Part shown: piece by piece, positions 25,177 through 34,434 of the stretch
How positions within the stretch are numbered: the stretch's first letter is position 1
How the letters are laid out: each line of letters starts with the position of its first letter
From: Oscillibacter sp.
GTDB lineage: Bacteria > Bacillota > Clostridia > Oscillospirales > Oscillospiraceae
NCBI RefSeq assembly: GCF_028693505.1
Contig: NZ_JAQUVF010000001.1
Coordinates: 87,037-151,036 of the forward strand
Length of the DNA: 64,000 nucleotides
Direction: 5' to 3'
The notes under the pieces: model-generated
The model's database searches: none
Told to the model about the DNA's origin: nothing
Seen by the model: only the letters and a program-made list of their open reading frames with translations
Position numbers and translations under genes: made by a program

Positions 25177-25317
25177 CTAGCTGCCGCGGTACTTTTTACG
25201 GGTGGCAATGCCGCCCCGGATATGCCGTTGGGCCTTGTTGACGTCCAGCACCTCCTTGACTTGCAGATACAGCGCCCGGTTGAATTGGGGCAGCCGTTCG
25301 GAGATGTCCTTGTGTAC
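25177..25317 (-). CDS. spoIIID: SpoIIID, C-terminal segment (separated part of a split gene)
   Basis: 46 codons plus TAG. From VHKD onward the translation matches the C-terminal half of SpoIIID, the DNA-binding regulator of the sporulation mother cell: ISERLPQ, then VKEVLDVNKAQRHIRGG and TRKKY, against the Bacillus ERLPE...VKEILDYHKSIRHLRGG...KYK as I remember it. It has no start of its own: the open frame upstream runs through non-homologous sequence and a terminator of the neighbouring gene. The helix-turn-helix half is 8,950 bp away at 34375-34256. Joining at the shared core TTGTGTACGG keeps the frame and gives an 82-residue protein. Confidence 0.9.
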   Translation of the reverse strand, partial: VHKDISERLPQFNRALYLQVKEVLDVNKAQRHIRGGIATRKKYRGS

Positions 25318-25337
25318 GGACAATACAAAAAGGAACG
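25310..25337. other. Left attachment site of the spoIIID element
   Basis: Core TTGTGTACGG (25310-25319) is shared with 34260-34269. The element-side arm GACAATACAAAAAGGAACG (25319-25337) is a 16/19 inverted match to the arm at 34240-34258. The other side of the core is spoIIID coding sequence. Crossover by a serine recombinase is expected within the core. Confidence 0.8.
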
Positions 25338-25344
25338 CTTTTGC

Positions 25345-25396
25345 GGGTCCGATAAAAATAAAACCCACCCCCTCCGCATATGGGAGAGGGTGGAGA
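25345..25396 (-). terminator. Terminator of the XRE-cupin gene
   Basis: Minus strand hairpin of CCACCCTCTCCC pairing with GGAGGGGGTGG across ATATGC, followed by GTTTTATTTTTAT; just inside the left end of the element. Confidence 0.75.
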
Positions 25397-25416
25397 ATCA
25401 ACGGAATCGCGGCGTC

Positions 25417-25968
25417 TTACGCCGTGTAATAGATCAGCAGGCTCAGCTTTGCCGTTTCCGTGCCGATGTTGCTATAACAGTGGGGAACGTCGGCGTTGAA
25501 TTTCACGGAGTCCCCTTCCCCCAGCTCAAAGCGTTCGTCCGCCGCCCGAATTTCCACCGCGCCGCTGAACACCGTGATGTATTCTTCCGTCCCGGCCATA
25601 TGGGGCTGCGCCTGGAAGATGCCGCCCTCCAAAATTTCGATGCGGTACCCCTCAAACATCCGGCCCTCCTGAAAGGGAAAGATCAGATAACTGAGAAACT
25701 TCCCCTCCCCCTCCACCATGGTGGGGGTCTGTTCGCTGTGGATCACGATGGAGCCGCCTTCCTTTTTATCCACCAGCGAGGAAAAGGAAACGCGATAGCC
25801 GTTTGCAATCTTCCAGAGGACCGAAATGGTGGGGTTCGCGTCCCCCTTTTCAATTTGCGCCAGCATACTGCGGGAAACACCCGTCAGTCTTGCGGCGGCG
25901 TCCAAAGTCAGGTGCTTTTGTTCGCGAGCGGCCTTAATGTTTTTTGCAACGGTATAGTTGATGTCCAT
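25417..25968 (-). CDS. XRE-family regulator with C-terminal cupin domain
   Basis: 183 residues. Helix-turn-helix at about 8-62 (NIKAAREQKHLTLDAAARLT with GVSRSMLAQIEKG), and a cupin at about 105-180 (GTEEYITVFSGAVEI, GDSVKFNADVPHCYSN). Such proteins usually repress a neighbouring operon and respond to a small ligand bound by the cupin. The crotonase-hbd-thiolase operon is divergent and 181 bases away, with a GTCAA-TTAT-TTGAC repeat in the gap, so it is the likely target. It lies inside the spoIIID element. Confidence 0.88.
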   Translation of the reverse strand: MDINYTVAKNIKAAREQKHLTLDAAARLTGVSRSMLAQIEKGDANPTISVLWKIANGYRVSFSSLVDKKEGGSIVIHSEQTPTMVEGEGKFLSYLIFPFQEGRMFEGYRIEILEGGIFQAQPHMAGTEEYITVFSGAVEIRAADERFELGEGDSVKFNADVPHCYSNIGTETAKLSLLIYYTA

Positions 25969-25983
25969 TCCAACCTCCAGCTA

Positions 25984-26109
25984 TTGACAACAGTTGCGGT
26001 TTGCGATATATTGGAAAAAAATACGATATAAAGGACTGACGGCGCAAACTGCCAGAAAAGGTGCTTTATAGAGTTTAACGTAGAATAGACCGTTTGTCAA
26101 TTATTTGAC
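25984..26109. promoter_or_regulatory. Divergent promoter region, regulator and crotonase operon
   Basis: Plus strand: TTGACA (25984-25989), 17 bases, TATATT (26007-26012), reading to the crotonase operon. Minus strand: TTGACA, 17 bases, TAAACT (about 26100-26072), reading to the regulator. An inverted repeat GTCAA-TTAT-TTGAC at 26096-26109 overlaps the minus-strand -35 box and is a possible operator. Confidence 0.6.
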
Positions 26110-26149
26110 GATAAATGACGGCAAAGAAATCAAAAAAGGGGGAGAAACG

Positions 26150-26926
26150 ATGGCACTTGTTGACTTTACCGTAAAAGAGCAGATTGGCTATCTCACCATC
26201 AACCGACCCGAAGCGATGAACGCGCTGAGTGACGAGGTGCTGACGCAGTTTCACGAAGTGCTGGACGGCATTGATCCGGATGAGGTGCGCTGCATCATTG
26301 TGACCGGCGCCGGGGACAAGGCGTTTGCGGCCGGTGCGGACATTTCCCAGATGGCCTCCGCCACGCAGGCGCAGGGTGCGGCATATGCACGTCGCGGCAA
26401 CGATCTGATGCTGCGGGTGGAGGCGTATCCCATTCCCACCATTGCCGCGGTGAATGGATTTGCCCTGGGCGGCGGGTGCGAGCTGGCGATGAGCTGCGAC
26501 ATTCGTCTGGCCTCGGAGCGGGCGGTTTTCGGCCAGCCGGAGGTGAAGCTGGGCATCACGCCGGGCTTTGGCGGGTCCCAGCGGATGGCCCGCCTGATCG
26601 GCATGGGCCGCGCCAAGGAGCTGATCTATACGGCCCGCAACGTCAAGGCGGAAGAGGCGCTTTCCATCGGGCTGGTGCAGGCGGTGTATCCCGCCGAAAG
26701 CCTGCTGGCCGAGGCGGAAAAGCTGGCCCGGCGGATTGCCGCCAACGCGCCCATTGCGGTGCGCCAGTCCAAAAAGGCCATGAACGCCGGCATCCAGACG
26801 GATATCGTCAGCGGCGTGGCAATCGAGGTATCCGCCTTTGGCGAATGCTTTGAAACGGCGGATCAGCGGGAGGGAATGGCCGCTTTCCTGGAAAAGCGGC
26901 CCCATAAGCCATTTATAAATCGCTGA
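26150..26926 (+). CDS. crt: Enoyl-CoA hydratase/crotonase
   Basis: 258 residues, crotonase fold. Oxyanion-hole segments AFAAGADISQMAS (about 61-73) and FALGGGCELAMSCDIRLA (about 101-118), catalytic glutamates in GGGCELAMS and FGQPEVKLGITPG. It hydrates crotonyl-CoA to 3-hydroxybutyryl-CoA or the reverse. In this operon (crt-hbd-thl) it fits acetyl-CoA to crotonyl-CoA flow toward butyrate. GGGGGAG precedes the ATG at 26150; the 15 codons upstream are not used. It is cargo of the spoIIID element. Confidence 0.93.
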   Translation: MALVDFTVKEQIGYLTINRPEAMNALSDEVLTQFHEVLDGIDPDEVRCIIVTGAGDKAFAAGADISQMASATQAQGAAYARRGNDLMLRVEAYPIPTIAAVNGFALGGGCELAMSCDIRLASERAVFGQPEVKLGITPGFGGSQRMARLIGMGRAKELIYTARNVKAEEALSIGLVQAVYPAESLLAEAEKLARRIAANAPIAVRQSKKAMNAGIQTDIVSGVAIEVSAFGECFETADQREGMAAFLEKRPHKPFINR

Positions 26927-26980
26927 GAAATCGGCGTTTATAGAAAGAAAAAATAATGGAACATAACAGGAGGAGTTCGC

Positions 26981-27817
26981 GTGAAAGTAGCAATTTTTGG
27001 CGCGGGTACCATGGGCAGCGGTATTGCGCAGGTCTTTGCGGAAAAAGGCCACACGGCACTGCTTTTTGCAAGCAACCCCGCTTCTGCCCAGAAGCACAAG
27101 GATAAACTGGCCGCTTCTCTGGAAAAACGGGTGCAAAAGGGCAAGCTGAGCATTGATGCAAAGCAGGCGGTTCTGGACAACATCCTCATCGAGGAGACCA
27201 GCGCCTGTGCGGACGCCGATTTGGTCATCGAGTGCATCAAGGAAGAAATGAGCGCCAAGAAGGCTCTGCTCTCGGAGCTGGACGCGCTGTGCAAGAGCGA
27301 GACGGTGTTTGCCACCAACACCTCCTCCCTCTCCGTCACGGAGATGGGGCTGGGGCTGAAGCACTCCGTCATCGGCATGCACTTTTTCAATCCCGTCCCC
27401 ACCATGGCGCTGGTGGAGATCATTCGCGGCGCCAACACCACGCAGGAGACCTTCGAGTTTATCGAGAGACTGACCAAGACCATCGGCAAGGAGCCGGTGG
27501 AGGTTTCCGAGGCCCCCGGCTTTGTGGTCAACAAAATTCTGGTCCCCATGATCAACGAGGCCATCGGTCTGGTGGAAACCGGCGTGGCCTCCGTGGCGGA
27601 TATCGACAAGGCCATGATGCTGGGCGCAAACCATCCCATGGGCCCTCTGGCTCTGGGCGACTTTGTGGGGCTGGACGTGTGCCTCGCCGTGATGGAGACG
27701 CTGCACCGGGAGACGGGCGATCCCAAGTATCGTCCCGCGCTGCTGCTGCGCAAGATGGTTCGCGGCGGTCTGCTGGGCCGTAAGACCGGCAAGGGCTTCT
27801 ACGACTACTCCAAGTAA
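26981..27817 (+). CDS. hbd: 3-hydroxybutyryl-CoA dehydrogenase
   Basis: 278 residues. NAD(P)-binding [18 protein letters not shown] at residues 7-24; 3-hydroxyacyl-CoA dehydrogenase signature with the catalytic histidine in [17 protein letters not shown] (about 130-146); C-terminal domain with [16 protein letters not shown]. It reduces acetoacetyl-CoA to 3-hydroxybutyryl-CoA. It starts at GTG 26981 after AGGAGGAG. Middle gene of the crt-hbd-thl operon inside the element. Confidence 0.95.
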
Positions 27818-27870
27818 AATTTTTCAATACGGGCAGCTGAATGCCTGAAAATAACAGGAGGTTTTCCCCT

Positions 27871-29076
27871 ATGGAGACAAAGGAAGTTGTGATCGTCAGT
27901 GCGTGCCGCACTGCCATCGGCAAGTTCATGGGCCAGTTCAAGGCCGTTTCCGCAAGAGAGCTTGCCATCACCGCCGGCAGCGAGGCAATCCGCCGCGCCG
28001 GCATCGATCCCAAGATCGTGGATTCCATGGTTATGGGCGAGGTTTACGCCGGTATGCAGGGCTCCCTGCCCGCCCGTCAGGTTTCCATGCGCGTGGGTCT
28101 GGACGAGTCCAGCAACGCCGTGACGGTGAACCAGAACTGCGCTTCCGGTATGCGCGCGCTGGAGATCGCCTGCAACGATATCCAGCTGGGCAAGAGCGAG
28201 ATCGCGCTGGTGGTCGGCACGGAGAACATGACGCAGACCCCCTACCTGCTGGAAAAGGCCCGCATGGGCTATCGCATGGGCGACAGCAAGCTCATTGACT
28301 CCCTGCTGCACGACGCGCTGTACGACGATCTCAGCGGCGGACACATGGGCGTGACCGCCGACAACGTGGCAAAGCGCTACAACATCACCCGGGAAGAGTG
28401 CGACGCGCTGGCCGCCCAAAGCCATCAGCGCGCCTGCGCCGCCATCGACGGGGGCAAGTTCAAGGAAGAGATCGTCCCCGTGACCATCAAGAGCAAAAAG
28501 GGCGACCAGATCGTGGATACCGACGAGCATCCCATTCGCGGCTGCACGGCGGAATCCATCGGCAAGATGAAGCCCGCCTTCACCCCGGACGGCGTGACCA
28601 CTGCCGCCAACGCCTCCGGCATCAACGACGCCGCCGCTGCCGTGGTGGTGATGTCCGCCGACAAGGCCAAGGAGCTTGGCATCCGGCCCATGGCGAAAAT
28701 GCTTCATATTTGCAGCGAGGGCGTGGACCCCAACTACATGGGCATCGGCCCCGCCGTGGCGATCCCCAAGTGCCTGCGCGCCGCCGGACTCTCCTTTGAC
28801 GATGTGAATTACTGGGAGATCAACGAGGCGTTCGCCGCCCAGTTCCTCGGCGTGGAGCGCAAGCTGAAGGAGGACTGCGGCGTGGAGCTGGACATGAGCC
28901 GCATCAATGTCAACGGCTCCGGTATTTCTCTGGGCCACCCCATCGGCTGCACCGCGCTGCGCATCATCGTCTCCATGCTCTATGAGATGCAGCGCAAGGA
29001 CTACAAGGTCGGCTGCGCCTCCTTGTGCGTGGGCGGCGGTCCCGCCATGGCGTCCCTTTGGACCCGCGACGTGTAA
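27871..29076 (+). CDS. thlA: Acetyl-CoA C-acetyltransferase (thiolase)
   Basis: 401 residues. The acyl-accepting cysteine is in NQNCASGMRALEIA (about residues 88-101); NVNGSGISLGHPIGCTALRI (about 343-362) carries the catalytic histidine, and CVGGGPAMA the second cysteine. It condenses two acetyl-CoA to acetoacetyl-CoA, the entry to butyrate formation, or the reverse. AGGAGG before the ATG at 27871 sets the start; the ORF extends 10 codons further without support. Last gene of the operon; a strong terminator follows. Confidence 0.95.
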   Translation: METKEVVIVSACRTAIGKFMGQFKAVSARELAITAGSEAIRRAGIDPKIVDSMVMGEVYAGMQGSLPARQVSMRVGLDESSNAVTVNQNCASGMRALEIACNDIQLGKSEIALVVGTENMTQTPYLLEKARMGYRMGDSKLIDSLLHDALYDDLSGGHMGVTADNVAKRYNITREECDALAAQSHQRACAAIDGGKFKEEIVPVTIKSKKGDQIVDTDEHPIRGCTAESIGKMKPAFTPDGVTTAANASGINDAAAAVVVMSADKAKELGIRPMAKMLHICSEGVDPNYMGIGPAVAIPKCLRAAGLSFDDVNYWEINEAFAAQFLGVERKLKEDCGVELDMSRINVNGSGISLGHPIGCTALRIIVSMLYEMQRKDYKVGCASLCVGGGPAMASLWTRDV

Positions 29077-29139
29077 AAAACAGACTCCCTTTTACCCGCG
29101 CGCAGAGGAGGACCTCCCTCTTTTGCAGCGCACCCTCTC

Positions 29140-29178
29140 AAAAAACGCTGCCATGGAGAAATCCATGGCAGCGTTTTT
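29140..29178 (+). terminator. Bidirectional terminator
   Basis: A 17-bp stem AAAAACGCTGCCATGGA with its complement, ending in TTTTT; between thiolase and the convergent hydrolase. Confidence 0.9.
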
Positions 29179-29179
29179 C

Positions 29180-30127
29180 TTATTGGGCCAACAGGAAGCG
29201 CGTCACGCTCTCCATGGCGGCAGCGGCCTTTTTAGTGGGGAACATCTGAAATACGTGCCACATGTCCTCACTGACCTCCAGCCGGGCGGAAACGCCCGCG
29301 CGGCAGAGCTTTTCGTAAAGCGCCTCTGCGTCGGAGTAGAGAATTTCGTGGTCCCCCACCTGAATGAGCACGGGCGGAAAGCCCGCAAAGTCCCCAAAGA
29401 GCGGAGAAAGCGACGGAAGATGCAGGTCGGCGGCACCTGCGTAGGCGCAGCGCACCGCTTCGATATATTCCGGCGTCAGCATGGGGTCCAGCGTTGCCCG
29501 CTCCGCATAGGACGCCCCGCTCATGGTCATGTCGGTCCAGGGGGACATCAAAACCAGCGCGCCGGGCAGCCGCCGCGCCGCGGAGCGCAGCCGGTGACAG
29601 AGCACCAGCGCCAGGTTGCCGCCTGCGGAGTCCCCCGCCAGCACCACGTTTTCCGCGCCGTAGCCCAACAGCATCAGGTAGTCCCACGCCTGCACGGCGT
29701 CCTGCACGGCGGCGGGATAGGGGTGCTCCGGCGCCAGACGGTATTCAAAGCTGAGCACGTCGTAGCCGGTGGCGTTGGCCAGCTTGGAGGCGAGGACCCG
29801 GGAATAGCCCAGATTTCCGCTGGTATAGCCGCCGCCGTGGCAGTAGAGGACCACGTGGCGGTTCCCGTGGGGAGTTTTTAACCGCATCCACGCCGCCGCC
29901 ATGTCGCCAAGGCGGAATTCCTCCCACGCCATGCCCGACATCGGCGCGGTCAGCCGCCCTAAAATCTCCTGATTGCGCCGCTGGCGCTCCAGCTCCTCCG
30001 GCGTGAGAGCCTCCGGCGTGCTGGCGCTGTGCAGCGCTTTGAGCGCCCGCATCATCGGCGCAAGGCGCTTTTGCTCCGCCTCCTGCCGGGCAGCGCCCCC
30101 TTTGCCGCTTTTAAAAAGCCCTTCCAT
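29180..30127 (-). CDS. Alpha/beta hydrolase, hormone-sensitive-lipase family
   Basis: 315 residues. HSL-type motifs: oxyanion YCHGGGYTSGN (about residue 108), nucleophile GDSAGGNLAL (about 176), acid VGDHEILYSDAEALYEKL (about 266), histidine in MWHVFQMFP (about 297). It hydrolyses short-chain esters or related substrates in the cytoplasm. AGGAGG is 8 bases before the ATG at 30127; upstream ATGs lack a site. Divergent from an acyltransferase-like gene 244 bases away that may form or use the matching ester. Inside the spoIIID element. Confidence 0.88.
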   Translation of the reverse strand: MEGLFKSGKGGAARQEAEQKRLAPMMRALKALHSASTPEALTPEELERQRRNQEILGRLTAPMSGMAWEEFRLGDMAAAWMRLKTPHGNRHVVLYCHGGGYTSGNLGYSRVLASKLANATGYDVLSFEYRLAPEHPYPAAVQDAVQAWDYLMLLGYGAENVVLAGDSAGGNLALVLCHRLRSAARRLPGALVLMSPWTDMTMSGASYAERATLDPMLTPEYIEAVRCAYAGAADLHLPSLSPLFGDFAGFPPVLIQVGDHEILYSDAEALYEKLCRAGVSARLEVSEDMWHVFQMFPTKKAAAAMESVTRFLLAQ

Positions 30128-30371
30128 GCCGCGTCCCTCCTGTCGTTTGGTGTTTGCCATGCGCTCATACGGCCCTGTGCCGTCTCTAAAACACGGCCTT
30201 AAATTCAGACACCCACCCACGGCGTGGGCGGATGCACGTAAAATAACCGCTTTGCGGGTATTCTATCATAAATATTTCCGGAAAGGAAGTCCTTCGCTCT
30301 TCCTTGCGCATGAGAGCGCGCCGTGATACAATACCGGTATTAAAATTGCTCGCGGCCTGCGGGAGGCAGTT

Positions 30372-31640
30372 ATGGAAAAAAAGCGCTGGTACAAACTGGA
30401 CAACGCGGGAGTCCTTTATTCCGCCTTGCAGCGGGAGGAATATTCCGCCACATACCGCTTCTCTGCCCTGCTGCGCGACATGGTGGACCCGGCTGCGCTG
30501 CAGCGGGCCATCGACGCGGTGATGCCCCGCTTTCCCGGCTTTGCCATGCGGATTCGCCGGGGCGTGTTCTGGAACTATCTGGAGCCGAATCCCAGCCCCG
30601 GCCCCTTTTTGAAAGAGGATGTCTCCGATCCCTGCCAGCCCTTTCGCTTTCACGAGGACGACCGCTGGCTGGTCCGCTTCTATTATTACCGTACCCGCAT
30701 TTCCGTGGAGGTATTCCACGCGCTGTCCGACGGGGCCGGCACGCTGGTGTTTTTCCGCACGCTGCTGGCGGAGTATCTGCGCCAAAAGGGCTGGGAGATC
30801 CCGCCGGGAGACGGCGTGCTGGACCTGGGGGAGGCACCCCGGGCGGAGGAGCTGGAGGACGCGTACGCCCGGTATGCCGGGTCCCACGCAAGAAAGCTGA
30901 AGCTGCTGCCCAAGGCGTTTTTAAATCTTGGCACCGCGGAGCCGTTTTATACCTTCCACGTGACCATGGGGTTTGTCCCCCTTGGGGCGCTGAAGGAAAA
31001 GGCGCGGGGATACGGCGTTTCCGCCACGGAATATCTGGCGGCCGTGCTGATCTGGGTTTTGCTGGAGCGCCAGCGGCAGGCCCACCCCTACCGACAGCGT
31101 CCGGTGGCGCTGGCGGTGCCCATCAACCTGCGGGCCTACTTCCCCTCCGAGACGCTGCGCAATTTCATCACCACGGTCCGCCCGTCCATCGACCCCACGC
31201 TGGGGGAGTATTCCTTTGAGGAGATCGTGGGGCAGGTCCACCACTATATGAAGCTGCACGTGAACCGTCAGGAGATGCAGTCGGCCTTCACCGCCAACGT
31301 GCGCTTTACCACCACGGCGGCGCTGAAGATCATCCCGGCCTTTTTGAAAACTCCGGTCATGGCCGCCAACTACCGGCTCCACGGTGTGCTGCCCTACTCC
31401 TGCACCTATACGAATCCCGGCCTTTTCACGGTGCCGGAGGCCATGCGCCCCCATATCCGGGGGATGGAGGTCATTTTGGGGCAGGCCACGGTCCCCCGGT
31501 GCCACTGCGCGTCCATCGGCTATGGCGACACCATGGAGATCACCTTTGCCGGCACACAGGCGGAGAGCGACACGGAGCGGGACTTTTTTCGCTTTCTCGT
31601 TCGCGCGGGCATTCCCGTCCGGGTGGAGAGCAACCGCTGA
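30372..31640 (+). CDS. Alcohol acetyltransferase/condensation-domain-like protein
   Basis: 422 residues. Resembles the chloramphenicol-acetyltransferase/condensation superfamily: an active-site-like HALSDGAGT (about residue 118, form HxxxDG), an N-terminal acyl-carrier fold, and a later conserved block VALAVPINLRAYFPSETLRNF (about 250, last residue trimmed in other members). Such proteins move acyl groups from CoA or a carrier to an alcohol or amine. GGGAGG precedes the ATG. It is followed 15 bases later by the DUF6320 gene and faces a lipase-like gene, a cassette I have seen as typical of Clostridia; the pathway is unknown. Confidence 0.7.
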   Translation: MEKKRWYKLDNAGVLYSALQREEYSATYRFSALLRDMVDPAALQRAIDAVMPRFPGFAMRIRRGVFWNYLEPNPSPGPFLKEDVSDPCQPFRFHEDDRWLVRFYYYRTRISVEVFHALSDGAGTLVFFRTLLAEYLRQKGWEIPPGDGVLDLGEAPRAEELEDAYARYAGSHARKLKLLPKAFLNLGTAEPFYTFHVTMGFVPLGALKEKARGYGVSATEYLAAVLIWVLLERQRQAHPYRQRPVALAVPINLRAYFPSETLRNFITTVRPSIDPTLGEYSFEEIVGQVHHYMKLHVNRQEMQSAFTANVRFTTTAALKIIPAFLKTPVMAANYRLHGVLPYSCTYTNPGLFTVPEAMRPHIRGMEVILGQATVPRCHCASIGYGDTMEITFAGTQAESDTERDFFRFLVRAGIPVRVESNR

Positions 31641-31655
31641 AAGGAGGGGCTGTAT

Positions 31656-32348
31656 ATGCCCTATTGCGTCAACTGCGGCGTAGAACTGAATCCGGGGAGT
31701 AAAAGCTGCCCCCTTTGCAAAACCCCTGCCTGGCAGCCGGAGGCCATTGACCCGCCCTACTTCCCCACCAAGCCCGCGGAGGTGGCGCTGGTTTCCAAAC
31801 GGATGCTGGCGCTGATCGTCACGTGTATGCTGGTTTCCGTGGGGGCCAGCTGCGGCCTTGTCAACTTGATTTTGCCCACGGAGCGGCCGTGGTCGCTGTA
31901 CGTCATCGGCGCGGTGGTCATGCTTTGGATTTGGCTGGTGCTGCCCATGCTGCTGCGCCGGATGCCCACGTTTTTGCGCCTGACGCTGGATGTGGCCGCC
32001 ATCGGCATCTACGTTTACCTGATTTCCCTCGATCTCAACGGCACACACTGGTTCCGCGCTCTGGCACTGCCCCTTTTGGGCGTTTGCTGCGCGGTGGTGT
32101 TTTTGCTAAGCTTCTTGCTGCGGGGCAACCGGCGCTCCCGGCTCTCCGCCATTTCCCTCACCATCGGCGCGGCGGGCCTGATGGCGCTGGGCACGGAATT
32201 TTTTACGGACCGCTATCTGCACGGCGCGTGGGACCCCGGCTGGTCCCTTGCCACGGTGGTGATCTGCGTGGCGCTGATCATCCCCCTGCGCATCATCCGG
32301 CACGTGCCGTCTCTACGCAATGAGGTCCGCCGCCGCTTCAGCCTGTAA
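31656..32348 (+). CDS. DUF6320 membrane protein with zinc ribbon
   Basis: 230 residues. An N-terminal zinc ribbon (CVNC at residues 4-7, CPLC at 17-20) is followed by a cytoplasmic linker and six hydrophobic segments (about 48-215). AAAGGAGG precedes the ATG. It matches my recollection of the DUF6320 family, found beside acyltransferase-like genes. Function unknown; a membrane partner of the upstream acyltransferase is inferred only from position. Confidence 0.7.
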   Translation: MPYCVNCGVELNPGSKSCPLCKTPAWQPEAIDPPYFPTKPAEVALVSKRMLALIVTCMLVSVGASCGLVNLILPTERPWSLYVIGAVVMLWIWLVLPMLLRRMPTFLRLTLDVAAIGIYVYLISLDLNGTHWFRALALPLLGVCCAVVFLLSFLLRGNRRSRLSAISLTIGAAGLMALGTEFFTDRYLHGAWDPGWSLATVVICVALIIPLRIIRHVPSLRNEVRRRFSL

Positions 32349-32390
32349 ACAGTGCACGCCGCGTGAAGAAAGGACTTTTGAACAGTCCGA

Positions 32391-32433
32391 CATCCCGCCT
32401 GATCTCCTTTGAGATCGGGCGGGATGCTTTTTT
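32391..32433 (+). terminator. Terminator after the DUF6320 gene
   Basis: A 16-bp stem CATCCCGCCTGATCTC with GAGATCGGGCGGGATG (one G-T pair), loop CTTT, then CTTTTTT. Confidence 0.9.
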
Positions 32434-32477
32434 AAAGGGGTTTCCGCCGCTTCGCGGTTTGGAAAATGGACGGCGGG

Positions 32478-33962
32478 TCAAGGGCAAAGGTAGACGTCCA
32501 CAGCGCCGTCTTTGTCCACCTCAATTTTTTCCACCAGCTGGCGCAGCTGCGCGTTGTTGAACCTTTCCACGCTGACAAGCGCGGGCAGACGCTGCGCAAG
32601 GCCCTTTGCAATGCGCTGCGCGGCGGCAAGGTCCGGCGGGGCGGAGGGCAGTTTGGAAAGCGCCGATTCCAGCCGGGAAAGCTCCGCCCTGCCCCGGCCG
32701 AGGGCCTGCTCCAGCTCCTCCCGGGTGATGAGATCGTCGGCATAGAGCGCGGTGTATTTGCCCCGCTGCGTTTCAAGCTTTTTCATCTGGGCTTGCAGGC
32801 TTTTGCGGTGTGCGTCGGCTGTTTGCCGGTCCCGAAAAAGCTGCCTGAGCGCCCCGCGCAGAAGGCTTTCCAGGCGGCGATGGCCTTGCAAAAGCGTGAG
32901 AAAGTACCGGTCCAGCGCCTCTGCAAGGGCCTGCTCGTCCACGGCGGCGGCGTTGGGACAGCTGTCGGCTCCCTGCCCGTTGTGCCGGCTGCAAACCCAG
33001 CGGACGTATGTGTTGCGGTAGGTGCGGCTGACTCGGCGGAAGGACCAGCCGCAGTCCTTACAGCGGATCAGGGTGGAAAATAAGTACCGATTGCTCTCGC
33101 GCCTGTGCTCTTGGTGAAACGCCCGGCTCCGGTCGGCCATCAGCGCGCGGGCCCGGTCAAAGAGCGCGTCCGGCAGGATGCGCAGCTCCGGCGCGCTGAC
33201 CACCAGCCAGGTTTCCTCGTCCCGGTCGGCCCGGGCGCTGGTGAGAAAATCCGCGATCTCCTGCTTGCCGTTGATGACTTTTCCGGTGTAGAGGGGATTT
33301 GCGAGAATGCGGCACACGGCGCTTTGGTTCCAGCAGCAGCCCCGCTTGGTCCGCACCCCCTGCCCGTTTAAAAGCGCGGCAATTTTGCCGCCGCCATAGC
33401 CATCCTCCACATACCACTGGTAGATTTGGCGCACCACGGCGGATTCCGCGGCGTTGATGGAAAGGTGGAACAGGTCTCCGGGAATCTTGTCGTACCCATA
33501 GACCAGATTGGGGACCTTCCCCTTTTCCGCGTTGACCCGCTTGCCGAACTTTACCCGCTTGGACATGTTGGCGGATTCCTCCTGCGCCAGCGCACCGAAC
33601 ACCGTGAGGATGAACTCACTCTCCCCCATGGAGGTCATGTTGGCGGTGAGGAAAACGGTCTCGATGCCCAGCGCCTTGAGCCGCCGCACGCTTTGCAGCA
33701 GGTCCACCGTGTTGCGGGCGAGGCGGGAGATGTCCTTCACCACCACCAGCTCAAAAAGACCCTGCTCCGCGTCGGCCATCATCTGCTGAAATTCCCTGCG
33801 GCGCTTGACCTTCGTGCCGGAAAGCCCTTCGTCGGCATAGAGCCGGGTCAGGGTGTGGCGGTTTTTTTGCGCGTACTCCACAAAGAAGCGCTTTTGGGTA
33901 TCCAGCGAGTTGAGCTGATCGGCCTTGTCTGTGGAGACGCGGCAGTAAGCGGCAATCTTTAT
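32478..33962 (-). CDS. Large serine recombinase of the spoIIID element
   Basis: 494 residues. The N-terminal resolvase domain has the catalytic serine in AYCRVSTDKADQ (Ser10), then LYADEGLSGT, KDISRLARN and GEFxx-type helix E residues. The recombinase domain (about 170-270) reads YGYDKI, AALLNGQGVRTKRG and ANPLYTGKVING. A zinc ribbon (about 300-345) has CKDCGWSF and later cysteines, followed by a long coiled coil. The GTG at 33881 would delete the catalytic serine. Upstream to the in-frame TGA there is no ATG, GTG or TTG. AAAGGAGG sits 9 bases before an ATA at 33962, so I infer a rare AUA start (AUU at 33956 is possible). It should excise the element flanked by the two spoIIID halves. Confidence 0.88.
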   Translation of the reverse strand: MKIAAYCRVSTDKADQLNSLDTQKRFFVEYAQKNRHTLTRLYADEGLSGTKVKRRREFQQMMADAEQGLFELVVVKDISRLARNTVDLLQSVRRLKALGIETVFLTANMTSMGESEFILTVFGALAQEESANMSKRVKFGKRVNAEKGKVPNLVYGYDKIPGDLFHLSINAAESAVVRQIYQWYVEDGYGGGKIAALLNGQGVRTKRGCCWNQSAVCRILANPLYTGKVINGKQEIADFLTSARADRDEETWLVVSAPELRILPDALFDRARALMADRSRAFHQEHRRESNRYLFSTLIRCKDCGWSFRRVSRTYRNTYVRWVCSRHNGQGADSCPNAAAVDEQALAEALDRYFLTLLQGHRRLESLLRGALRQLFRDRQTADAHRKSLQAQMKKLETQRGKYTALYADDLITREELEQALGRGRAELSRLESALSKLPSAPPDLAAAQRIAKGLAQRLPALVSVERFNNAQLRQLVEKIEVDKDGAVDVYLCP

Positions 33963-33992
33963 GGCGAAACGCCTCCTTTCCGAATGAATGGG

Positions 33993-34154
33993 TCACGGGA
34001 CCTTGCCTGTGCGCCCCGTGGGTGCGTCCACGGCGGCGGAAGCGGGCGCGGACAGGGCGGCAAGAAGCTCCGGCGGCGCGGACTGCACCAGCAGGCTTAG
34101 CAGGCGTTCGAGAGAGGGCTCCTGATTTTCCGGCGGGTGAAAACGAACGGTCAT
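33993..34154 (-). CDS. Small ORF between spoIIID N-half and recombinase
   Basis: 53 codons from the ATG at 34154, with AAAGGAG 11 bases upstream. The product begins MTVRFHPPENQEPSLERLLS and continues with a leucine-rich helix and an alanine/proline tail. No family recognised. It overlaps the end of the element-derived tail of the truncated spoIIID frame (ATGA-type overlap near 34151-34154) and ends 30 bases before the recombinase start, so spoIIID-N, this ORF and the recombinase look like one transcript. It could be an excision cofactor or a translation-coupling leader; both are guesses. Confidence 0.45.
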   Translation of the reverse strand: MTVRFHPPENQEPSLERLLSLLVQSAPPELLAALSAPASAAVDAPTGRTGKVP

Positions 34155-34375
34155 GGCCTGTCCGGCTCCTTTCTGCTTAGAAAATCCTGCGGGGAGGGCG
34201 GAGCGGTGGGAGAAGGCAAACGGGGGCCGACGCAGATACCGTTCCTGTTTGTAGCGTCTTTGTGTACGGTTGATTTGCTGATGCCGAATTTTTGCGCGGC
34301 GGCGCGGACCGTGGTCCGGTTCTCTATGATGTAAAGAGCCAGGCGCTCGGCCCGCTCTTCCATGTTTTCTTTCAA
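34151..34375 (-). CDS. spoIIID: SpoIIID, N-terminal segment with element-derived tail
   Basis: Codons 1-40 (34375-34256) are the N-terminal half of SpoIIID with its helix-turn-helix: TTVRAAAQKFGISKSTVHKD against TVRVIAKEFGVSKSTVHKD in Bacillus as I remember it. After VHKD the frame enters element sequence and gives an unrelated 34-residue tail to the stop at 34151. The TTG at 34375 gives exactly the Bacillus-like spacing (eight residues to the ER) and has GGGGAG 9 bases upstream; a GTG at 34378 is an alternative. In this form the protein lacks the C-terminal basic region needed for DNA binding in SpoIIID. It becomes whole if joined to 25317-25177. Confidence 0.9.
   Translation of the reverse strand: MKENMEERAERLALYIIENRTTVRAAAQKFGISKSTVHKDATNRNGICVGPRLPSPTAPPSPQDFLSRKEPDRP
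34240..34269. other. Right attachment site of the spoIIID element
   Basis: The element-side arm CGTTCCTGTTTGTAGCGTC (34240-34258) is a 16/19 inverted match to the left arm. Core TTGTGTACGG is at 34260-34269, followed by spoIIID coding sequence. In the excised circle the arms would flank a 10-base spacer, giving a 48-bp attP of typical serine-integrase size. Confidence 0.8.
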
Positions 34376-34405
34376 CACACAACACTCCCCGCCTCTTGTT
34401 GCTCC

Positions 34406-34434
34406 ATCCTATGCAAACCGCGGCGGGGATATGA
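34406..34434 (-). promoter_or_regulatory. Sigma-E-type mother-cell promoter of spoIIID
   Basis: Minus strand TCATATC (34434-34428), 14 bases, CATAGGAT (34413-34406). The Bacillus sigma-E consensus is roughly KMATATT, 13-15 bases, CATACANT, so the match is 6 of 8 in the -10 and good in the -35. It lies about 30 bases before the TTG start. No other promoter is evident between here and the recombinase. The opposite direction of this 242-base gap holds the upstream region of the nitroreductase gene (TATGAT at 34555-34560 is a possible -10). Confidence 0.6.

Follow-up and report, generated by a model that had tools for sequence, protein, structure and literature searches.

A recombinase-bearing element divides the sporulation gene spoIIID in an Oscillibacter genome and is likely to be excised in the mother cell

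The divided spoIIID gene

The window analyzed here is a 64,000-nucleotide stretch of contig NZ_JAQUVF010000001.1 (positions 87,037 to 151,036, forward strand) from Oscillibacter sp., whose genome is a 2.06-Mb draft in 49 contigs. In it the gene for SpoIIID, a regulator with a role in the mother cell (PMC517825, PMC5025042), was found in two pieces separated by an element that encodes a large serine recombinase (LSR). An earlier sequence-only reading had taken this for a skin-like element whose removal would restore spoIIID, and the strand and coordinates it assigned to the two halves were correct (open reading frame (ORF) 34378-34151; end of the C-terminal half at 25177). The features of the split gene and its recombination system are as follows.

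34405..34434, minus strand: predicted sigma-E-type promoter of spoIIID, with -35 TCATATCC at 34434-34427, a 12-nt gap and -10 GCATAGGATG at 34414-34405
34151..34378, minus strand: spoIIID 5' half, host-derived as far as the crossover at 34264-34263, then extending through element sequence up to a stop at 34153-34151
34237..34269, minus strand: element end at the 5' half, consisting of the core repeat CCGTACACAA and the right arm of the circle junction
33993..34154, minus strand: 53-aa ORF (MTVRFHPPENQ...), candidate recombination directionality factor, between the 5' half and the LSR gene
32478..33962, minus strand: large serine recombinase (494 aa, read from an ATA codon), over cut-off for Pfam Resolvase, Recombinase and Zn_ribbon_recom and matching PHROG integrase phrog_95
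25315..34264, minus strand: intervening element, 8,950 bp between two CA core dinucleotides
25310..25340, minus strand: element end at the 3' half, consisting of the left arm of the circle junction and the core repeat CCGTACACAA
25177..25314, minus strand: spoIIID 3' half, from the crossover at 25314-25313 to the stop codon

The direct repeat common to both halves, CCGTACACAA, lies at 34269-34260 and 25319-25310. Precise removal of the element from the sequence restored the spoIIID frame and gave a protein of 83 amino acids, so that joining at the shared repeat keeps the frame as had been claimed, and residues 5-81 of the product could be aligned with Bacillus subtilis SpoIIID (PDB 2l0k). Against TIGR02844 the separate halves scored 45.6 and 66.4 bits and the joined protein 111.8 bits, just above the curated cut-off of 111.5. 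The split falls within GISKSTVHKD, inside the DNA-binding motif of SpoIIID, and since we take this segment to form the recognition helix, DNA binding is not expected of either half. A search of the genome, which is 97.65% complete, for another intact spoIIID returned no second copy and two partial matches only. The recombinase that had been noticed between the halves, beside the N-terminal one, was confirmed by its three Pfam domains.

Comparison with related genomes showed that the two halves belong together. Among 86 genomes of the genus (counted by hand from the table of matches), 72 contained a full or nearly full-length spoIIID, 7 a partial one only (G000, G028, G013, G017, G057, G058, and G020), and 7 none; wholeness was judged by the span of the model, the tally of scores over the TIGR02844 cut-off being a poor test that 16 of the 86 pass. 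In each of 20 loci retrieved from relatives with an intact spoIIID, the window halves matched side by side. Many of these loci carry the genes that flank spoIIID in the window near the intact gene, several hold it between them, and in L056 a nitroreductase match lies ~170 bp from it. Because the halves are contiguous in relatives, they are not unrelated genes mistaken for spoIIID, and the 8,950 bp is, judged by this gene order, evidently an insertion. In G013 (L035, L036) spoIIID is split a few bases further on, at a different core and possibly by another recombinase; this case was not counted below.

Recurrence of the recombinase and of the crossover site

Thirty-two split-looking genomes were picked by eye from a sample of 400 genomes of the family, and 14 of them carried both halves on one contig; together with the window these make up 15 linked elements. 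Two candidates, G195 and G369, were rejected as split genes, since their overlapping matches look like plain contig breaks. The genome of L270 (G495, contig C52) has three matches resembling the 5' half on one contig and the 3' half on another, perhaps from repeated insertions.

Every one of the 15 linked elements carries a gene homologous to the window LSR (E ≤ 1e-127). In the other 14 the LSR stop lies close to the spoIIID 3' half, between 28 bp short of the crossover and 209 bp beyond it, whereas in the window the LSR follows the 5' half. The LSR frame of most linked elements (L136, L140, and L142 among them) extends across the crossover, so integrated and circular forms would encode different C-terminal tails. 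The window LSR appears to start at ATA (33962-33960), preceded by a strong AGGAGG site; a gene caller limited to ATG, GTG and TTG places the start at 33881 and misses the catalytic motif at the N-terminus. The recombinase of G123 has an ATA start as well. Within the genus, LSR relatives of at least 50% identity were found in 4 of the 86 genomes, three with split spoIIID (G000, G028, G057) and G034, in which spoIIID is near full-length and the LSR match is partial. In L148, from G034, a small ORF (...RFEIVDPNEAG...) directly precedes an LSR relative of 51% identity.

Named genomes were scanned with an alignment of 16 LSRs, and the best 80 of at least 369 relatives were used, a sample of the closest. 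A spoIIID 3' half followed the LSR match by 44-197 bp in 74 of these 80 loci, and a full-length spoIIID was present at none of the 80. Among the 74 are Blautia massiliensis, B. glucerasea, B. schinkii, [Ruminococcus] torques ATCC 27756, Schaedlerella arabinosiphila, Sporofaciens musculi, Agathobaculum butyriciproducens, and Angelakisella massiliensis, and isolates with split genes and culture-collection numbers exist, such as A. butyriciproducens DSM 100391, S. arabinosiphila DSM 106076, and B. massiliensis GD8. Twenty genomes behind such loci were examined: 19 had a partial spoIIID, none was strong on both sides of the split, and a Christensenella genome among them had no spoIIID match. The remaining six of the best 80 comprised two loci that end within 63 bp of the LSR (L194, L254), one with 1,162 bp after the LSR without spoIIID (L195), and L205, L210 (Christensenella), and L233, where close LSR relatives with similar element ends lie away from spoIIID, possibly at other attachment sites. 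No spoIIID was found at any of 80 LSR loci on viral contigs, and the best LSR match in phage records was 49.7% identical, the next among the matches listed being 31%.

Nine of the 74 loci also hold the 5' half, so 24 elements (15 linked and 9 named loci) have both ends on one contig; element sizes range from 2,565 to 52,551 bp. The crossover in the window was resolved to the CA of a His codon, at 34264-34263 and 25314-25313. Both junction strings proposed earlier matched the sequence, the predicted junctions for this organism being AACCGTACACAAGGACATCT (chromosome) and GCGTCTTTGTGTACGGACAA (circle). The predicted circle junction of the window is an inverted repeat at 17 of 24 positions, and none of 1000 shuffles scored as high. 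In 15 of 15 linked elements the best of seven shifts was the inverted repeat centred, unshifted, on the CA of the His codon, and 9 of 9 named loci with both ends had the same centre; this coincidence in 24 elements rules out a chance repeat at the split. Twenty-two of the 24 circle junctions were equalled by at most 2 of 1000 shuffles. The reconstituted chromosome sites scored 7-10 of 24 for the inverted repeat. An asymmetric pair of attachment sites is usual for large serine recombinases, and the sites here combine a short direct repeat with an inverted repeat.

An uninterrupted circle junction, AACCGTTC...[CA]...GAACGGTT, was found at the 3' end of an LSR gene on a 62-kb IMG/VR contig (L274) whose LSR is 53% identical to that of the window; the scan of IMG/VR for the circle junction yielded nothing beyond this contig. 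In G017 and G192 the contig with the 5' half stops and the contig with the 3' half starts inside the core, and in G398 the 5'-half contig stops there, as expected if inserted and excised forms coexist.

A small partner gene, its predicted promoter and a second split gene

A set of 81 elements (the 15 linked ones and 66 non-duplicate named loci, several of them incomplete) was examined for genes accompanying the LSR. Sixty of the 81 encode a ~55-aa protein with the pattern KLNYRFHNPN...LLKILIEAN..KVE.AI. No usable family match for it was found in Pfam, NCBIfam, or PHROGs, and the named proteins among the best 120 of its 453 relatives are hypothetical or uncharacterised. The protein is a candidate recombination directionality (excision) factor. 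The motif TATT-N13-15-CATA was present upstream of the small gene in 22 of 41 non-redundant regions (drawn from 55), compared with 3 of 86 LSR upstream regions and 9 of 619 control ORFs; TATAAT was present in 41 of the 86 LSR upstream regions. By these motifs the LSR looks constitutive in many elements, and the small gene appears to have its own mother-cell-type promoter. With the published sigma-E consensus, that of B. subtilis with 15 informative positions (PMC3416734), a score of at least 12/15 was reached by 12 of 41 small-gene upstream regions vs 12 of 71 LSR upstream regions, and elsewhere by 44 of 619 controls, 4 of 205 shuffles, and 13 of 24 spoIIID 5' halves. A second motif, CATA-N4-7-GGACAA, was found in 19 of 55 small-gene upstream regions (0.035 expected). 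If GGACAAG is the SpoIIID box, SpoIIID would, once restored, feed back on the factor gene.

The arrangement in the window is a variant. By eye, ORFs resembling the 53-aa ORF immediately precede the LSR in L194, L195, and G446, whose LSRs group with that of the window (SH-aLRT 95, in a quick tree with long branches). The ATG of this ORF overlaps the stop of the spoIIID 5' half (ATGA), and the ATA start of the LSR follows the stop of the ORF (TGA) by 10 codons in the same frame. The predicted promoter of spoIIID matches 12 of the 15 informative positions of the B. subtilis sigma-E consensus, and the segment between crossover and LSR contains no sigma-E-like site (8/15; control mean 9.68). Since the ATG and stop overlap, the LSR points in the same direction, and spoIIID keeps a sigma-E-like site while the segment has no other, we infer that the spoIIID promoter would drive both the candidate factor and the LSR.

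A second sporulation gene of this genome, sigK, is also split, its pieces lying ~35 kb apart on contig C28 (3375-39502; loci L174, L175), and a distant LSR (52.6 bits to the window LSR) ends at the sigK 3' half. The gene spoIVA is whole. At least 4 of the 31 other genomes with split spoIIID also have sigK in two pieces that meet at the same place (search E 1e-25), namely G114, G446, G234, and the genome of L257, with the pieces on different contigs in G114 and G446. The ~35-kb interruption of sigK in the window genome contains, by eye, pilus- or secretion-like ORFs and a 2,568-aa ORF resembling a peptide synthetase. In C. difficile, sigma-E and SpoIIID control excision of the skin element, and a spoIIID mutant keeps a faint excision band (PMC5025042). 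The two excisions inferred for the window genome would proceed in series, spoIIID and then sigK.

Explanations of the split and comparison with known systems

The remaining genes of the window element are the following.

25417..25968, minus strand: helix-turn-helix-cupin transcriptional regulator, by family match
26150..26926, plus strand: enoyl-CoA hydratase (crotonase), by family match
26981..27817, plus strand: 3-hydroxyacyl-CoA dehydrogenase, by family match
27841..29076, plus strand: thiolase (acetyl-CoA acyltransferase), by family match
29180..30220, minus strand: alpha/beta hydrolase of the esterase/lipase family, by Pfam and PHROGs
30372..31640, plus strand: 422-aa protein, no family match (including Pfam and PHROGs)
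31656..32348, plus strand: DUF6320 protein, by Pfam

The cargo thus includes crt-hbd-thl, and a second crotonase homolog, 52% identical, is encoded elsewhere in the genome. Comparison of the nine proteins of the window element with PHROGs and Pfam revealed no phage structural or packaging genes, the matches being to an integrase, generic regulators, and an esterase only.

Site geometry, the recurrent recombinase, the small neighbour gene with its mother-cell-type promoter, and the interrupted sigK support the skin-like reading of the spoIIID element. By these comparisons spoIIID is interrupted, at a codon common to many gut Clostridia, by an LSR-bearing element that is likely excised in the sporulating mother cell to yield intact SpoIIID, a reading to which we assign a probability of about 0.7. 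The LSR would cut at the CA of the His codon in STVHKD and close the element into a circle. The small neighbour gene would be switched on by mother-cell sigma-E, and its product would act as the directionality factor by which the LSR excises instead of integrating. In the window, the spoIIID promoter would drive spoIIID's own repair, and because sigK is split too, repair of SpoIIID would precede that of sigK. A fuller version, which we put at somewhat less than even odds, holds that spoIIID serves as a DNA switch across a wide range of gut Clostridia and that here it is self-repairing: a sigma-E operon comprising the interrupted gene, an excision factor coupled to it in translation, and the recombinase gene would cause the first mother-cell transcription to remove the element, and restored SpoIIID would then open the sigK element, giving two serial excisions.

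Several observations weigh against excision in the mother cell. Two of the 24 circle junctions (G100 and G143) were without significance. The contig ends in G017, G192, and G398 could equally be produced by a strain mixture, and in G010, which has one split and one joined copy of spoIIID, a mixture is as likely as excision, since the copies differ by one base left of the core. The sigma-E contrast obtained with the published B. subtilis consensus is modest. The 53-aa window ORF matches the ~55-aa family only weakly, at 7.4 bits and E 0.29 when 21 elements were searched leniently. An open spoIIID 3' half is present in 80 of 81 elements, a contig end cutting into the remaining one, and because the elements move between species these open halves may mean only recent insertion. 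For the same reason the low pN/pS (ratio of nonsynonymous to synonymous changes) of the 3' halves (0.10, 18 pairs) was dropped as proof.

The strongest rival is an ordinary mobile integrative element or prophage-like island that uses spoIIID as its attachment site and excises for its own transfer, its carriers sporulating poorly or not at all. Cargo is widely variable between elements, as such an island would have it: the G143 element (L141) carries an F-type ATP synthase operon, with no atpD (beta subunit) over cut-off elsewhere in that genome, the G129 element (L136) carries ribD, ribE, ribBA, and ribH, with the only ribD over cut-off there, and the G446 element encodes a phage tail sheath. 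Near-identical elements also occur in diverged Blautia hosts. Those of L199 and L201 are 97% identical, the spoIIID 3' halves being 81% and the next host DNA 75-80% identical, a similarity read as horizontal transfer; further out, another 5 kb is again 96% identical. The unintegrated junction on the viral contig and the LSR relatives at places without spoIIID (L205, L210, L233) point the same way. However, a mother-cell-type promoter precedes the small partner gene in about half of the non-redundant cases, the partner in the window is wired to the spoIIID reading frame, and sigK of the same genome is interrupted too, and we consider this alternative unlikely. Much less probable still is that the insertion is dead and the halves are remnants in a lineage no longer able to sporulate. 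The split sigK would fit such a loss, but both halves are open and the joined protein is over cut-off, the LSR is intact over three domains, spoIVA is whole, and the open 3' halves recur in nearly all elements. That unrelated contigs were joined at a short repeat is conceivable in a 49-contig draft but hardly credible, because 24 elements with both ends, drawn from other assemblies and including isolates, repeat the split with an identical centre.

If the interruption acts as proposed, it would be an irreversible DNA step earlier in sporulation than any found described, since SpoIIID precedes sigma-K in the mother-cell programme and, in B. subtilis and C. difficile, governs the removal of skin. 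Tests for gene presence would score a split spoIIID as truncated or missing and, because the split recurs in common gut genera, could misjudge spore-forming commensals. The atpD of G143 and the ribD of G129 lie inside elements, which puts in question the effect of their removal on the mother cell.

The sporulation genes named as interrupted in the literature are sigK, spsM, spoVFB, spoVR, gerE, and yabG (PMC4191935, PMC5595907, PMC10747680, PMC6957869, PMC5025042). The sequence-only reading was aware of no such element in spoIIID, and the search of open-licence literature likewise revealed no report of one. Unspecified spoIIID differences have been noted between two Anaerostipes hadrus strains (PMC12888040). 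Nothing useful was found in the open-licence literature on spores in Sporofaciens and Schaedlerella. Four of the interrupted genes, spsM, spoVFB, spoVR, and yabG, have a later or structural role compared with spoIIID. The elements in the first three (SP-beta, vfbin, and vrin, respectively; PMC4191935) and yin in yabG (PMC10747680) are recombinase-borne and their excision restores the gene where tested; yin is reported from a single strain.

The closest parallels are skin and gin. The skin of sigK in B. subtilis and C. difficile (skin-Cd, with the LSR CD1231 and the directionality factor CD1234; PMC5025042) is, as here, an LSR-bearing element in the gene for a mother-cell regulator, and the combination of a constitutive-looking LSR with a small factor predicted to be under mother-cell control has its counterpart in skin-Cd. 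Unlike skin, the element described here targets spoIIID, which itself controls skin excision in C. difficile and B. subtilis; its small protein matches no known family, and in the window the cargo is metabolic and the spoIIID 5' half precedes the factor and LSR. The window element is not in sigK and so is not skin proper, sigK being interrupted separately on C28. In Bacillus cereus, gin is a non-phage element in gerE, also the gene of a small mother-cell transcription factor, with an LSR, the directionality factor GirX, and a 9-bp core (PMC5595907). Three serine recombinases are present in gin, which was found in some B. cereus and B. toyonensis strains, whereas each linked spoIIID element has a single LSR of this family and the spoIIID elements occur across several families of Clostridia. 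The spoIIID element probably belongs with the skin and gin class, and what is new is spoIIID as the target.

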